From: a virus
DNA length: 27,753 nucleotides
IMG/VR virus record: IMGVR_UViG_3300015076_000009
Span: 1-27,753 of that record
Strand: one strand, 5' to 3'
This document shows positions 4,451 through 18,256 of the stretch, one piece after another. The notes below the pieces were generated by a model. That model ran no database searches. It had not been told where the DNA came from and saw only the letters and a list, made by a program, of their open reading frames with translations. Both the position numbers and the translations under genes were made by a program. Position 1 is the first letter of the stretch, and each line of letters begins with the position of its first letter.

Positions 4451-4645
4451 TCAGAGTTTCAGCAAGTCCTTCATTTTCGGAGGGTATTCAGGATTAAGGC
4501 TGTACAGCTCTGAATAGAATCGCATAAGAGTGGACTTCCCCGGGCCTCGTACCCCGCTGTACGTAAGTCCAGCGAACCTATGCGTAGCTTGTTTGCCGCG
4601 CAGACGCTTCTTTTGCTTGCGCCGCCTTGTATTGGAATTGCTCAT
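4451..4645 (-). CDS. Hypothetical basic protein, 64 aa
   Basis: Not recognised. The start at 4645 overlaps the preceding stop as TGATG, which favours it over the longer ATG at 4711. The N-terminus is very basic (TRRRKQKKRLRGKQ), suggesting contact with nucleic acid, and is followed by a less charged part ending in a Tyr/Pro/Lys segment. It could be a small RNA- or DNA-binding protein, but nothing more specific can be said. Confidence 0.7.
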   Translation of the reverse strand: MSNSNTRRRKQKKRLRGKQATHRFAGLTYSGVRGPGKSTLMRFYSELYSLNPEYPPKMKDLLKL

Positions 4646-4884
4646 CAGTATTTGTAAATCGCCAGACCGAAGCTGAAAATTACAACGATCACATCGATGA
4701 TGTGAGACCATTTGGTCAGTTTGATGGCAATTCTACGATCATCAGTTGATTCGCCGAACATGTCTTTCAACATCTCCATGTTCGCTTGCACCGTTTTTTC
4801 AGGCGACAAAAGGCTACGAATCAACATGGACAGGATAACCAGTCCAATCAAAGCCATCAGGATAGAGCTAGAATGGGATGTCAT
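4645..4884 (-). CDS. Small membrane protein with two transmembrane segments
   Basis: Not recognised. With the start at 4884 the protein has 79 residues; an in-frame ATG at 4908 would add eight. Neither start has a strong Shine-Dalgarno sequence, and the first codons overlap the preceding gene, so coupling is likely. Two hydrophobic helices are visible, SILMALIGLVILSMLI near the N-terminus and IIDVIVVIFSFGLAIY at the C-terminus, joined by a charged ~40-residue loop. This hairpin topology is seen in holins and superinfection-exclusion proteins, but no lysis genes are nearby, so the role is open. Confidence 0.68.
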   Translation of the reverse strand: MTSHSSSILMALIGLVILSMLIRSLLSPEKTVQANMEMLKDMFGESTDDRRIAIKLTKWSHIIDVIVVIFSFGLAIYKY

Positions 4885-12381: not shown

Positions 12382-12427
12382 TACGAACTCCTAGGTGCAC
12401 TGTGCGTTGCGCTGTGTGCATGTAGCA

Positions 12428-12477
12428 ATTATATGCGATGCACCTGGTTAGTAGACGCTTCGTTTGCATCTTTACAA
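12428..12477 (-). promoter_or_regulatory. Promoter with TGTAAAG box, copy 1
   Basis: On the minus strand TTGTAAAG starts at 12477 and TATAAT at 12433, 44 bases apart, with TGCATCG just before the -10 and TGCTACATGCA just after it. No TTGACA-like -35 is present, so an activator at the TGTAAAG box may replace it. It serves the 53-aa gene. Confidence 0.6.
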
Positions 12478-12498
12478 AGTAGGCAGATTATTCGAAGT

Positions 12499-12543
12499 GT
12501 GTAAAGTCGCTTGACGTAGCAGACTGTATGTGCATCGTATAAC
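12499..12543 (+). promoter_or_regulatory. Promoter-like TGTAAAG / TGCATCG-TATAAC, reading into the AT-rich region
   Basis: GTGTAAAG at 12499 and TATAAC at 12538 are 39 bases apart, with TGCATCG before the -10 as in the other copies. No gene starts downstream for over 700 bases, so a transcript from here would be a leader or a replication primer. Confidence 0.4.
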
Positions 12544-12586
12544 CACACTGATCAGCAGGTTATGCGAATTACTTGACAGATCGCAA

Positions 12587-13002
12587 ATTAACAGAATGGA
12601 GCGCAACGCGCACAATTAACCGATATTTGCAAACATTCTTACATCTGTTACATCGAGAAATATTGTACAGATTCCCGATGCATATTGTGGATGCTGTATA
12701 GTGTATAAATAGTAATAATTAACTAAATAACAAAGAAATACAGCTTGACAAAATACCTCTTTTTTTATTTTTTTACGTACATCGTGTTAATCGCATTCCT
12801 TCTGTTAATCCTCCCACATAACACAATTAACGTATTATGCGCATTTCCCAGTGCATATGCGTTTTTATTATATATAAAAATTTTCCCCTATATATAGCGC
12901 AGCGTACATATGTTAAGCGCGCTCCATAACACACCTACTTCCAATTAATAATTTTTACGCGTAAGTCCACTACTTCTTGTTAATCGCAATAGTTCTGTTA
13001 AT
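12587..13002. repeat. Array of GTTAAT/ATTAAC boxes
   Basis: Eight exact boxes occur: ATTAAC at 12587, 12615, 12718 and 12826, and GTTAAT at 12786, 12804, 12979 and 12997. Two GTTAAT pairs are each spaced 18 bp and sit within a 26-bp near-repeat (12784-12809 and 12977-13002). Two more sites lie at 11760 and 11782. The spacing suggests an iteron-like or cooperative binding array. Confidence 0.55.
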
Positions 13003-13237
13003 AGCTTTTCTTGCCTGGACAGCACAGCATTTAACGTTCTGTAAAGTGCTCACAGCTCTCCCTGATAATGTGCTAACTGCACAAAGTTGGTCTGCACGTG
13101 GAGCGCACGCAAGTAGCACAGCCGCTAGCACAATCACAAGCTTTTTGTGTCCACTTTACAAAGATGCATATTCACGCTGTGCACAGTGTGGTCATGTCGT
13201 CAAGCACTATCTGCAATAACCCTCTGATCAGGTTTAA

Positions 13238-13278
13238 TTGTAAAGCTGATCCCGCTGCTGCTTTGCGCATCGTATAAT
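13238..13278 (+). promoter_or_regulatory. Promoter with TGTAAAG box before the 60-aa membrane gene
   Basis: TTGTAAAG at 13238 and TATAAT at 13273 are 35 bases apart, with GCATCG just before the -10. Transcription would start about 13285 and give a ~20-base leader carrying AAGGAG. An AACCCTCTGA site lies just upstream (13218-13227). Confidence 0.6.
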
Positions 13279-13303
13279 TGTGCATCAACACAAGGAGTCC
13301 GCA

Positions 13304-13994: not shown

Positions 13995-14243
13995 TTAGTT
14001 CGTGACGACTTGCTTCTTCATGCGCGCGTTGCGGCAGCGCACGGCAGCGGGCGTGCTCGACTCGGCGCGCCAGCGGTAGAACTGCAGGCGGACCGTCGTC
14101 GGGTGCATGCCGAGCTGTTCCGCAATTGCGGGGAGGTGCTTGCTCGTGATCACGGACGTGCTTTCCTCGAACACTTCGCGGATCACGCCGCACAGCGTTG
14201 CCTTCGTGTCGTTCATGGCTTGGGTCTTGGCTTGTTCGGACAT
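13995..14243 (-). CDS. Small helix-turn-helix protein, 82 aa
   Basis: The ATG at 14243 has GGAG 6 bases upstream. The N-terminal half is helical. Residues ~35-65 read SVITSKHLPAIAEQLGMHPT followed by TVRLQFYRWRAE. This matches a helix-turn-helix in which AEQLGMHPTTVRLQFYRW would be the turn and recognition helix. The C-terminus is basic (RCRNARMKKQ). It is a candidate reader of one of the palindrome families around it. It has its own TATAGT promoter with a TGTAAAG box. Confidence 0.7.
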   Translation of the reverse strand: MSEQAKTQAMNDTKATLCGVIREVFEESTSVITSKHLPAIAEQLGMHPTTVRLQFYRWRAESSTPAAVRCRNARMKKQVVTN

Positions 14244-14306
14244 TTTAAACTCCTGCGTGCTTTGCACTTTGGGTTGCGGGGAGCGACTTGCTTTCCCGAT
14301 GTGTTA

Positions 14307-14356
14307 ACTATAACTCAGATGCGATGCGCTGTGTCAGCGTTTTTGCATCTTTACAG
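14307..14356 (-). promoter_or_regulatory. Promoter with TGTAAAG box, copy 3 (HTH gene)
   Basis: CTGTAAAG begins at 14356 and TATAGT at 14312 on the minus strand, 44 bases apart as in copy 1, with GCATCTGAGT before the -10. Confidence 0.55.
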
Positions 14357-14458
14357 AGTAACCAGAATTGCGATTTGCGTGCGCACAGCCAACAGCAGAT
14401 CAGCCCAGCCGAAGCCGGTTGCGCGGAGCGCGTGCGAAATGTGTTGGACTGTTTGCAT
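14351..14458 (-). CDS. Possible leaderless small protein, 35 aa
   Basis: A frame MQTVQHISHALRATGFGWAD, then LLLAVRTQIAILVTL, with codon choice like its neighbours, starts six bases after a TATAAT box. No Shine-Dalgarno sequence is present, so it would be a leaderless message. The second half is hydrophobic. Its stop codon overlaps the TGTAAAG box of the next promoter. It may be only the transcribed leader of the HTH gene; the coding call is tentative. Confidence 0.4.
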   Translation of the reverse strand: MQTVQHISHALRATGFGWADLLLAVRTQIAILVTL

Positions 14459-14464
14459 GTAGCA

Positions 14465-14504
14465 ATTATAAGATGCAAAACATCTTGCAGGTGCATCTTT
14501 ACAA
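14465..14504 (-). promoter_or_regulatory. Promoter with TGTAAAG box, copy 2
   Basis: TTGTAAAG begins at 14504 and TATAAT at 14470 on the minus strand, 34 bases apart, with GCATCT directly before the -10. TGCTACATGCA follows it, exactly as in copy 1. Confidence 0.6.
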
Positions 14505-14538
14505 TGCTGGCAGATTATGCACCTGCGTGCACGCGCGC

Positions 14539-14803
14539 AAATAGCTCAGAAAATATTTTTAGGCAAGCGATATTTTGCTGCTCTTTTGTGCTAGCGCCGA
14601 AGAAAGATGTATTGCACACCTTGCTTATAAAAGAGGCACAAGTGCTAGCACATAAAAGAGCTAAAATACACCTTGCCAAATAAATATTTTCGTGCTCGCA
14701 CCGAGTAAGACATATTCTGCAACTTGCCTAGTAATGTGGCCACACTGCTAGCACAAGTCGGGCTGAAAATATCGCTTGCGCAAACTTTATTTCTGAGCTA
14801 TTT
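14539..14803. repeat. Long interrupted inverted repeat
   Basis: Left blocks AAATAGCTCAGAAA (14539-14552) and GCAAGCGATATTTT (14563-14576) recur as exact reverse complements at 14790-14803 and 14766-14779, with the same 10-base gap. TTGTGCTAGC follows each arm at the same offset inward, so about 57 bp per arm is organised alike. The ~150-base interior has the palindrome GTGCTAGCAC (14641-14650) and two ACACCTTGC copies. No gene lies inside. Confidence 0.75.
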
Positions 14804-14862
14804 ACAGCGCGTTTTATGCTCGATGTTTAGGCAGGACAAACATCTAAAAAGAGCTGATACAA

Positions 14863-14877
14863 CGGAGACACTCTCCG
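14863..14877 (+). terminator. Hairpin before the 76-aa gene, terminator or attenuator
   Basis: CGGAGA-CAC-TCTCCG is a perfect 6-bp stem followed by CCTATTTTCTT. It lies 62 bases before the next start codon, so it could end upstream transcription or act as a leader hairpin. Confidence 0.45.
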
Positions 14878-14939
14878 CCTATTTTCTTAGATACTACGTA
14901 CATGGGTTGCAAAGTGCAGCTCGCAACAAGGAGTTCCAA

Positions 14940-15170
14940 ATGTACGCACTCGAAACGATCAGCAAGGATGTCAAGTCCTACGCAACGGAAGCGAACGCAG
15001 TAAAGGCTGTGGTTGCTTACTTCGGCCCGCAAAACGACAACACGGATCGCCACTGCAACATCCTGATCGTGTGCAACGCGCAAGGGCGCTTTGTCCCGAT
15101 GTGCATCAACATTCGCCCAGGTCCGTCGTTCAGCGTGTGCCTCAACAGCGGCTTTTTCTGCGCGAACTAA
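14940..15170 (+). CDS. Hypothetical protein, 76 aa
   Basis: AAGGAG lies 6 bases before the ATG at 14940. The protein MYALETISKDVKSYATEANA has a helical N-terminal half and a beta-like second half with four Cys (HCNILIVCNAQGRFVPMCIN). It has no signal peptide and no known motif. It is preceded by the inverted-repeat region and followed by a CGGGT/ACCCG hairpin. An upstream in-frame extension to 14724 has no ribosome site. Confidence 0.7.
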   Translation: MYALETISKDVKSYATEANAVKAVVAYFGPQNDNTDRHCNILIVCNAQGRFVPMCINIRPGPSFSVCLNSGFFCAN

Positions 15171-15199: not shown

Positions 15200-15257
15200 G
15201 TGCAAATTATAGTGCGTGCTCTAGGCGCGTGCTCTACGCGCGTGCTATAATTTGCAC
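15200..15257. repeat. 13-bp inverted repeat enclosing a triple 13-bp direct repeat, with TATAAT promoter
   Basis: GTGCAAATTATAG (15200-15212) and CTATAATTTGCAC (15245-15257) are perfect inverted copies. Between them GCGTGCTCTA-type units repeat three times with a 13-base period, the last one merging into TGCTATAAT. Each arm contains a TATAAT, one on each strand. The rightward extended -10 serves the gene at 15275. Confidence 0.7.
15246..15251 (+). promoter_or_regulatory. Extended -10 promoter for the 61-aa gene
   Basis: TGCTATAAT followed by TTGCACATCAAC and then AGGAG. The early transcribed sequence resembles that after the 13273 promoter (TGTGCATCAACAC). Confidence 0.6.
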
Positions 15258-15274: not shown

Positions 15275-15460
15275 ATGCCCAATGTCCTTACCGTGTCCGC
15301 TTTCGCGCATTTCGTAGCGATCACTCTGCAAAACGACAAAACGCATAACGTCGAGCTGCTCGGACTAATTGCGGATATGGAGGAAACCGCTCGGGACATG
15401 GATAACCCGCTGTTGGCGCAAGCTGCGCGTTTGCTTGCGCAAGCCGAACAAGAGCTATAA
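15275..15460 (+). CDS. Hypothetical helical protein, 61 aa
   Basis: AGGAG lies 5 bases before the ATG. The protein MPNVLTVSAFAHFVAITLQN continues as an acidic helical region (IADMEETARDMDNPLLAQAA, RLLAQAEQEL). It is probably a small helical bundle or coiled pair. It is a single-gene unit with its own promoter and paired hairpins downstream. No family was recognised. Confidence 0.72.
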   Translation: MPNVLTVSAFAHFVAITLQNDKTHNVELLGLIADMEETARDMDNPLLAQAARLLAQAEQEL

Positions 15461-16335: not shown

Positions 16336-16375
16336 TGTTGGTAAGCGCTCACGAGCCCGGTTCCGACCTATAAAG

Positions 16376-16464
16376 AAGCATGCTTTTTCAAAAACGTCTG
16401 GATTCGTTTTTGCCTAGTTTTGGAGAAGCATGCTTTTTCTTCCCCGCAACAAAGAAGCATGCTT
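16376..16464. repeat. AAGCATGCTT cluster 1 (three copies)
   Basis: Copies at 16376-16385, 16426-16435 and 16455-16464, the last extended to AAAGAAGCATGCTTCTTT. A 26-bp sequence (16397-16422) between copies 1 and 2 recurs at 16849-16874 with one mismatch. The last copy is 19 bases before the ATG at 16484. Confidence 0.75.
16397..16422 (+). repeat. 26-bp direct repeat, copy A
   Basis: TCTGGATTCGTTTTTGCCTA and six more bases. Copy B at 16849-16874 differs only at one position. Both precede small genes with the AAGCATGCTT operators, as if the control region had been duplicated. Confidence 0.7.
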
Positions 16465-16483
16465 CTTTTATCTAGGAGTTGAT

Positions 16484-16874: not shown

Positions 16875-16887
16875 ACTTTTGCTTGAA

Positions 16888-16948
16888 AAGCATGCTTCTT
16901 TGTTTTTGCGAAAAGCATGCTTCTTTCTGCTACAATAAAAGCATGCTT
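16888..16948. promoter_or_regulatory. Operator-promoter: AAGCATGCTT cluster 2 overlapping a TACAAT promoter
   Basis: Copies at 16888-16897, 16913-16922 and 16939-16948 are spaced 25 and 26 bp. A -10 box TACAAT (16931-16936) lies between the second and third copies. The second copy fills the -35/-10 spacer and the third covers the start point. This is the layout of a three-site repressor-controlled promoter. The gene at 16964 follows after a GGAC ribosome site. Confidence 0.7.
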
Positions 16949-16963
16949 TGAAAGGACTTTGAT

Positions 16964-17233: not shown

Positions 17234-17380
17234 CCTTGCGTTACACTGCAACTCCTGCGGCCTGCATGTGGCTAGCGAGTGCACACCAACCTTGGATGAT
17301 CAAGTGCCTGAATCAGATCGACCCTTGCCTATCAGTTTCTGGTCCCAACCTGTCCCTGCAGCGACAGCGGACCAGGATAA

Positions 17381-17418
17381 AAGCATGCTTCTTTCTGCAG
17401 AGGAAGAAAAGCATGCTT
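17381..17418. repeat. AAGCATGCTT cluster 3 (two copies)
   Basis: Copies at 17381-17390 and 17409-17418. The 20 bases from 17379 are identical to those at 16911-16930 in cluster 2, so part of the operator-promoter was copied. The first copy contains the ATG proposed for the next gene. Confidence 0.7.
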
Positions 17419-17909
17419 CTGATCTGAATCTTAACGATTGGATGCCGAGCTTCGATTCCAAGGGTTTGACACGCGCCGACGTGCAAGCGCTGTACGGAAC
17501 GTTCAGCCAGCAGATGGGTCAAGAGCTTCGCACGTACGAACAGATCTATCAGCATGTCTGCATGGTTCAGATTGCTATGCAGAAGCAACCGCAAGCAAAT
17601 ATCGATCCGGTTTGGGTTGCGCAGCACGATGCATTCACACCGAAAATTTTTGTTGGGGAAGACCCGGCAAGCGCTTCCGCAGCGGACGCTATGGAAGCGC
17701 AGGACAACGCACACGCACAGCAGGCAAGCGCTTTGCCGCGTGCTCAACTCCACGATATCGCAGAGGCTGCGCGCCTATCCTGGAAGGATGCTGTCGAGCA
17801 ACGCCGAAAAGCTGTATCAGACTGGGATGAATACGTCCGCATGAAGCATGCGGACTACGATCAAGCAAAAGCCAACCTGAAGGCTTTTCGAAAGCATGCT
17901 TCTACGTAG
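17385..17909 (+). CDS. Hypothetical protein, 174 aa, start codon inside an operator
   Basis: The frame is open from a GTG at 17268 without a ribosome site. AGGA lies 7 bases before the ATG at 17385, which is chosen. The protein is helical, with DWMPSFDSKGLTRADVQALY, an Ala/Gln-rich middle and a basic helical end (EQRRKAVSDWDEYVRMKHAD, YDQAKANLKAF). No domain was recognised. Four AAGCATGCTT copies lie in or touching the frame: two at the start, and one at the end encoding KHAS plus one just after. If the longer start is real, cluster 3 lies within the coding sequence. Confidence 0.65.
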   Translation: MLLSAEEEKHASDLNLNDWMPSFDSKGLTRADVQALYGTFSQQMGQELRTYEQIYQHVCMVQIAMQKQPQANIDPVWVAQHDAFTPKIFVGEDPASASAADAMEAQDNAHAQQASALPRAQLHDIAEAARLSWKDAVEQRRKAVSDWDEYVRMKHADYDQAKANLKAFRKHAST

Positions 17910-17925
17910 ATAGGAAAGCATGCTT
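17892..17925. promoter_or_regulatory. AAGCATGCTT cluster 4 with possible promoter
   Basis: Copies at 17892-17901 and 17916-17925, spaced 24 bp. A TAGATA box (17907-17912) lies between them, in the same relation as TACAAT in cluster 2. It precedes the HTH and primase operon. A second possible promoter, TTGCGA-N18-TAAACT, lies at 17950-17979. Confidence 0.55.
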
Positions 17926-18019: not shown

Positions 18020-18256
18020 ATGAGTTCAACAACTGCCCAGGACCGTTTTAACGAGAAGTATGTCTCGTCGCGGGAGATCCTGAAGCGCCTGAAGGTGACG
18101 CGCCCCACGATCAGCAAAGCTCGAACACGGGGATTGCTGCCTGATCCTATTGTCATTCACGATACGCTGATCTTCCTGTGGGAACGGGAAGTGGTGGAGC
18201 CATACATCGCGGCGTGGGAACTCCTGCTCAATGCGAAGCGTGCACACAAGCAATGA
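18020..18256 (+). CDS. Helix-turn-helix DNA-binding protein, 78 aa
   Basis: GGAAG lies 5 bases before the ATG. The region YVSSREILKRLKVTRPTISK, then ARTRGLLPDP, is a winged-helix or MerR/excisionase-like HTH: helix SSREILKRL, turn, and recognition helix TRPTISKARTRG. The rest is an alpha-helical tail (ILWE...YIAAWELLLNAKR). Its stop overlaps the primase start as ATGA. It could repress this operon, load the primase at the origin, or read the AAGCATGCTT sites just upstream; sequence alone cannot say which. Confidence 0.78.
   Translation: MSSTTAQDRFNEKYVSSREILKRLKVTRPTISKARTRGLLPDPIVIHDTLIFLWEREVVEPYIAAWELLLNAKRAHKQ

Follow-up and report, generated by a model that had tools for sequence, protein, structure and literature searches.

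What does a long, interrupted inverted repeat do in the non-coding gap between two divergent genes of a virus? The repeat lies in a window (the whole stretch of DNA analyzed here) that is a single virus contig of 27,753 bases from an IMG/VR record. The primase of the window is closest, at about 50% identity, to those of the Nipunavirus/Queuovirinae group (PaMx25, NP1, DoCa3, VPv62), and the record of PaMx25 classifies that phage as Queuovirinae, Nipunavirus. Further proteins encoded in the window are ThyX, an ATP-dependent ligase, a Sak4-like protein, SSB and a Dda-like helicase. Judged from its sequence, the carrier of the repeat is a Queuovirinae-like phage of bacteria. A nearer relative is found in the IMG/VR contig L004, whose primase is 66% identical, and no match at the DNA level to the 10-22 kb part of the window was found in the phage collection.

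The first-pass annotation had reported a 57-bp interrupted inverted repeat in which blocks of 14, 14 and 10 bases are identical while the linkers differ, and this was confirmed. The arms, 14539-14595 on the plus strand and 14747-14803 as reverse complement, match at 43 of 57 bases. Block 1, AAATAGCTCAGAAA, and block 2, GCAAGCGATATTTT, are each identical at 14/14 positions and block 3, TTGTGCTAGC, at 10/10, whereas the 10-nt linker agrees at 4/10 and the 9-nt linker at 1/9. Blocks at 38/38 against linkers at 5/19 is the pattern expected of a binding array, in which motifs are kept and spacers drift; when the matches were placed at random over the 57 positions, block runs this long arose in 34 of 200,000 trials. 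The match between the arms is also above all shuffles, with ceilings of 31-34 for whole-window Markov shuffles and 34 for 300 local-composition shuffles, and the runner-up 57-nt inverted pair anywhere in the window scores 33. BLAST recovered the same pair at 14531-14595 and 14747-14812 (79% identity); its extra length and its single gap come from an ACGCGC block that prolongs each arm outward with a 1-nt offset and places the ends at 14531 and 14812. The same annotation held that no gene lies inside, and this was borne out: we found no credible gene between the arms, the interior open reading frames (14288-14683 and 14724-15170) were judged mechanical, and the rightward gene most likely starts at ATG 14940, behind AAGGAG.

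As a description of the locus, however, the inverted repeat is incomplete, for the interior holds more copies of the arm unit. The 57-bp inverted repeat is the outermost pair of a five-unit array. The whole array spans 14531-14812, in a non-coding gap of 43% GC, and is made of five diverged ~52-bp units bounded by inverted end blocks; unit boundaries were obtained by cutting the stretch at its palindromes. Unit u1, the left arm, lies on the plus strand at 14539-14599, and u2 (14586-14653), u3 (14640-14703), u4 (14690-14756) and u5, the right arm (14743-14803), lie on the minus strand, so that u1 is inverted relative to u2-u5, which stand in tandem. Two subtypes alternate, with u1, u3 and u5 alike (subtype I) and u2 and u4 alike (subtype II). 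Among the units, u1 matches u5 at 47/60 positions (z 7.5) and u3 at 45/59 (z 6.4), and u2 matches u4 at 49/66 (z 7.7) and u3 at 41/64 (z 4.0). Ungapped, the left arm agrees with the reverse complement of the 14640-14703 unit at 36/57 positions, a figure that 1000 shuffles of the interior do not attain (at most 32). Taken as pairs, u2u3 and u4u5 are diverged direct copies with a repeat length of 103 bp; no other direct self-match in the window is as strong (65/115, where shuffles go no higher than 54), and the autocorrelation of the array peaks at 103 and 52.

The palindromes themselves, which we call P sites, are near-perfect copies of GTGCTAGCAC. Four of them, each with at most one mismatch, fall within 170 bp, and 200 whole-window shuffles reach no more than three copies. 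P1 is GTGCTAGCGC (14588-14597), P2 the perfect GTGCTAGCAC (14642-14651), P3 GTGCTCGCAC (14692-14701) and P4 CTGCTAGCAC (14745-14754). Their centers, at 14592.5, 14646.5, 14696.5 and 14749.5, are 54, 50 and 53 bp apart, and the set is symmetric about 14671-14671.5. Alternating with the P sites, about half a unit away, are five GGCAAG-type boxes, here called B: GGCAAGCGATATTTT on the plus strand at 14562-14576 and, on the minus strand, a GCAAG core at 14620-14624, GGCAAG cores at 14672-14677 and 14723-14728, and GCAAGCGATATTTT at 14766-14779. At the two array edges, P is replaced by the end block AAATAGCTCAGAAA, at 14539-14552 (plus) and 14790-14803 (minus). An array is marked by a motif repeated at least three times, more often than chance provides, over a short non-coding stretch, and that is seen here in the P sites, in the unit pairs with z of 6.4-7.7 and in the 103-bp self-match.

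The array occupies the gap between a leftward gene at 13995-14243 and a rightward gene at 14940-15170. The leftward gene, on the minus strand, encodes a small helix-turn-helix (HTH) protein of 82 amino acids that is a candidate binder of the array. It is 58% identical to a homologue in L004, the only contig in which a family scan found one. A helical HTH fold is predicted for it (mean pLDDT 77, from a two-sequence alignment); its match to Pfam HTH_23 is weak and below the cut-off (E 0.014), and a fold search with the predicted model gave no match at E <1. The rightward gene, on the plus strand, encodes a small protein of 76 amino acids without a reliable family match. The HTH gene has a promoter-like sequence, TATAATTGCTACATG, at 14456-14470 on the minus strand, and 12419-12433, upstream of a second leftward gene, has the identical sequence. 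The gap also contains TTGTAAAGATGCA at 14492-14504, a sequence that other genes have upstream as well. With 0-1 mismatch it occurs at 12465-12477, 14344-14356 and 14492-14504, in each case upstream of a leftward gene and near TATAATTGCTACATG promoter-like sequences, and it is possibly a regulatory motif of the phage. On the rightward side, a promoter-like sequence was judged by eye to have a weak resemblance, and a sigma-70 consensus scan of the gap returned no rightward promoter. We also considered the arms as two outward promoters (TTGCnn-17-TATTTr); these are too weak, and the sigma-70 scan finds nothing there. Beyond the rightward gene, at 15200-15257, a 20-nt inverted repeat (GTGCAAATTATAGTGCGTGC / GCGCGTGCTATAATTTGCAC) flanks a 13-bp tandem repeat; the feature amounts to two TATAAT promoter-like sequences in opposite orientations before the gene at 15275.

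We consider it very probable that the locus is some kind of multi-protein binding array, its motifs serving as cis-acting sites for one or two DNA-binding proteins. The P palindrome would bind a symmetric dimer, and the B box, GGCAAG adjoining AT-rich DNA, would be a second type of site. A P spacing of 50-54 bp is about five helical turns, which would put bound dimers roughly on one face of the DNA, where they could co-operate and join into a single wrapped or looped complex. Among specific functions we favor bidirectional control of transcription between the divergent genes, with a probability of roughly 0.45. Because the array sits between promoter-like sequences that face away from it, joint control of the two flanking operons is the most likely arrangement, and the array would switch both together, by repression or by activation. 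The neighboring small HTH protein would be the first candidate for the binder. In favor of transcription control we counted the blocks that are kept beside linkers that are not, the direct copies in the interior, the 103-bp repeat, the four P sites, the divergent gap with its promoter-like sequences, and the predicted HTH protein next door; against it we counted the lack of the array in L004, the weakness of the rightward promoter, and a size, 280 bp, that is large for a plain operator.

The comparison with L004 bears directly on the identity of the binder. The gap upstream of the HTH homologue in that contig has neither an inverted repeat nor a repeated motif, and when the two intergenic stretches were aligned with gaps allowed the score did not exceed that of shuffles. 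The L004 HTH gene has an identical HPTTVRLQFYRWR stretch yet no comparable array upstream. The signature of an operator, an adjacent regulator with target sites conserved in relatives, is thus not seen: the homologue is present in L004 and the array is not. Therefore, either this HTH protein does not bind the array or the binding sites have turned over. The first-pass annotation had stated that its view would be refuted if the blocks were not conserved in close relatives, and the absence observed here is in a relative that is only moderately distant (primase 66% identical).

That annotation preferred protein contact sites to a plain hairpin or a transposon end, and we arrive at the same preference, since the motifs recur between the arms in direct orientation, at ~52/103-bp spacing, and cannot pair there as a stem. 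A hairpin would not require such direct interior copies. The alternative of a structure-forming element, in which single-stranded DNA or RNA forms a large interrupted hairpin, would agree with a strand that is predicted to fold more stably than its shuffles (DNA -59.2 kcal/mol, z -6.5; RNA -100.5, z -6.5) and with arms that pair with each other in the predicted fold. However, any long inverted repeat folds well, so the folding score is not independent evidence, and the array has no Rfam match; with the interior copies unexplained, we regard this as very improbable. A transposon end is disfavored because no target-site duplication is visible (the flanks do not repeat) and the 27,753-base contig holds no second copy of the array; nor is there an above-chance match in phages or plasmids. 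The same two observations count against a functionless residue of local tandem and inverted duplications, or the remnant of a small mobile element. Duplication can generate both the 103-bp direct repeat and the inverted unit, and the array and its neighboring small genes fall in a stretch that L004 lacks. Decay of duplicates erodes identity evenly, whereas the arms have lost it in the linkers and not in the blocks, and we think such a residue unlikely. Distinctly unlikely, too, is a centromere-like, packaging or site-specific recombination site that would act as the platform on which a partition, terminase or recombinase complex assembles. The partition site of plasmid F, sopC, consists of repeated units with one palindrome each and a unit length similar to that of the array. 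In contrast to sopC, the units here are much more diverged, the first one is inverted, and no partition gene was recognized among the proteins scanned; about 20 proteins of the fragment included no integrase, resolvase, ParA/ParB or terminase, the sole exception being a weak excisionase-type HTH resemblance.

Second in rank, after transcription control, comes a replication origin, which we regard as possible and rather doubtful. P and/or B would be initiator sites, the AT-rich stretches between them would open, and the array would be the loading place of the helicase-primase whose gene lies 3.5 kb to the right. Consistent with this are the repetition and rough phasing of the sites, the AT-rich (43% GC) non-coding gap that holds them, its position a few kb upstream of the primase/helicase gene, and a relative (L029 8879-9063) with a seven-copy direct-repeat array, 27-29 bp apart, before its early operon. 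Against it, the window has no exact DnaA box anywhere, and L004 lacks the array. Set beside the iteron layout, direct repeats of one initiator site next to an AT-rich region, the array shows u2-u5 as direct repeats spaced 50-54 bp, with AT-rich DNA between them, and has no separate AT-rich region. An iteron origin would be expected at the place of the origin-like junction that relatives conserve, an AT-rich TGYTAAY stretch; the array has none, and in the window that junction maps to 12440-13290. This AT-rich, non-coding region has six TGYTAAY motifs against 1.2 expected (P 0.001, although the motif was noticed and then counted in the same sequences, which makes P values descriptive), and four of the six form two 18-bp-spaced pairs, of the TGTTAATCGCA-N7-TGTTAAT type, 193 bp apart. 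TGYTAAY is enriched in divergent junctions of most relatives examined (L004, L006, L007, L024 and others), with observed/expected counts of 5/0.75 in L004 1120-1720, 5/0.46 in L024 and 3/0.24 in L006; L015 shows no enrichment and L021 a weak one. Comparison with relatives thereby separates the array from a second, family-conserved AT-rich region, and it is 12440-13290 that may be the replication origin of the phage group and is the better candidate. None of the roles in recombination, packaging or origin function that the first-pass annotation had offered was borne out. A bolder reading makes the array an essential initiation or segregation site of the phage lineage and a nucleoprotein scaffold of a new kind, in which two site types interleave at half-unit distance and inverted end blocks close the row; this, too, we hold to be improbable.

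Operator arrays and iteron arrays are known kinds of element. The operator arrays of lambda-type immunity and early control likewise have several palindromic sites between divergent genes, beside an HTH gene; here, by contrast, two site types interleave in five units of ~52 bp, the end blocks are inverted, no repressor is known, and the sequence is unrelated to anything found. Iteron-type origins of phages and plasmids also combine AT-rich DNA with sites repeated in rough helical phase, but iterons are usually direct repeats of ~20 bp beside an AT-rich unwinding region, whereas the repeat unit here measures ~52 bp, one copy of it is inverted, and the conserved AT-rich junction of the group sits away from the array. 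The specific layout, in which two site types interleave, subtypes alternate, one unit is inverted and end blocks are present, is unmatched by anything searched. The limited open-access literature searched apparently contains no mapped early control or replication sites of Queuovirinae-like phages.

The array sequence had no match in any collection searched, and we do not take this lack of close relatives as a sign of rarity. Nineteen of the arm bases, used as a gapped pattern, gave one coding-sequence coincidence in IMG/VR. Scans with patterns for the arm, P pairs, P-B and the B-P unit in IMG/VR, and for the B-P unit in bacterial genomes, returned nothing or single chance matches, and blastn of the array region gave no plasmid hit and, in phages, only chance pieces of 24-33 nt. 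The pattern matches that we rejected are a transaldolase-like coding stretch, identified by eye (L005), a large repetitive open reading frame (L066), and one site, with no array, upstream of a large open reading frame in an Erwinia genome (L067). The AT-rich palindromes of L012, tried as an analogue, are probably driven by composition. The array is a well-delimited non-coding element of 282 bp with defined sites, a fragment small enough for assays of binding, promoter control and autonomous replication.

Relatives, too, have tandem site arrays in the non-coding gaps of their early regions: AGATCTCAAA occurs seven times in L029 and AAGCATGCTT six times in L004. These differ from the array in sequence, in their 24-29-bp spacing, and in having no inverted pair with end blocks. 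The seven tandem repeats at L029 8879-9063 are GATAAGATCTCAAAA-like and lie in the gap before the early operon of that related phage. The palindrome AAGCATGCTT, often followed by T runs, is interspersed in the window at 16361-16468, 16884-16955, 17372-17420 and 17784-17925, and in L004 at 4549-4692; its clusters, mostly with 24-29-bp spacing, lie in gaps upstream of wHTH/primase genes in both phages. Immediately before the primase of the window, 18020-18256 encodes a small winged-helix-like protein (phrog_11967) with homologues in L004, PaMx25 and VPv62 that also precede the primase, and its product is possibly an initiator or a regulator.
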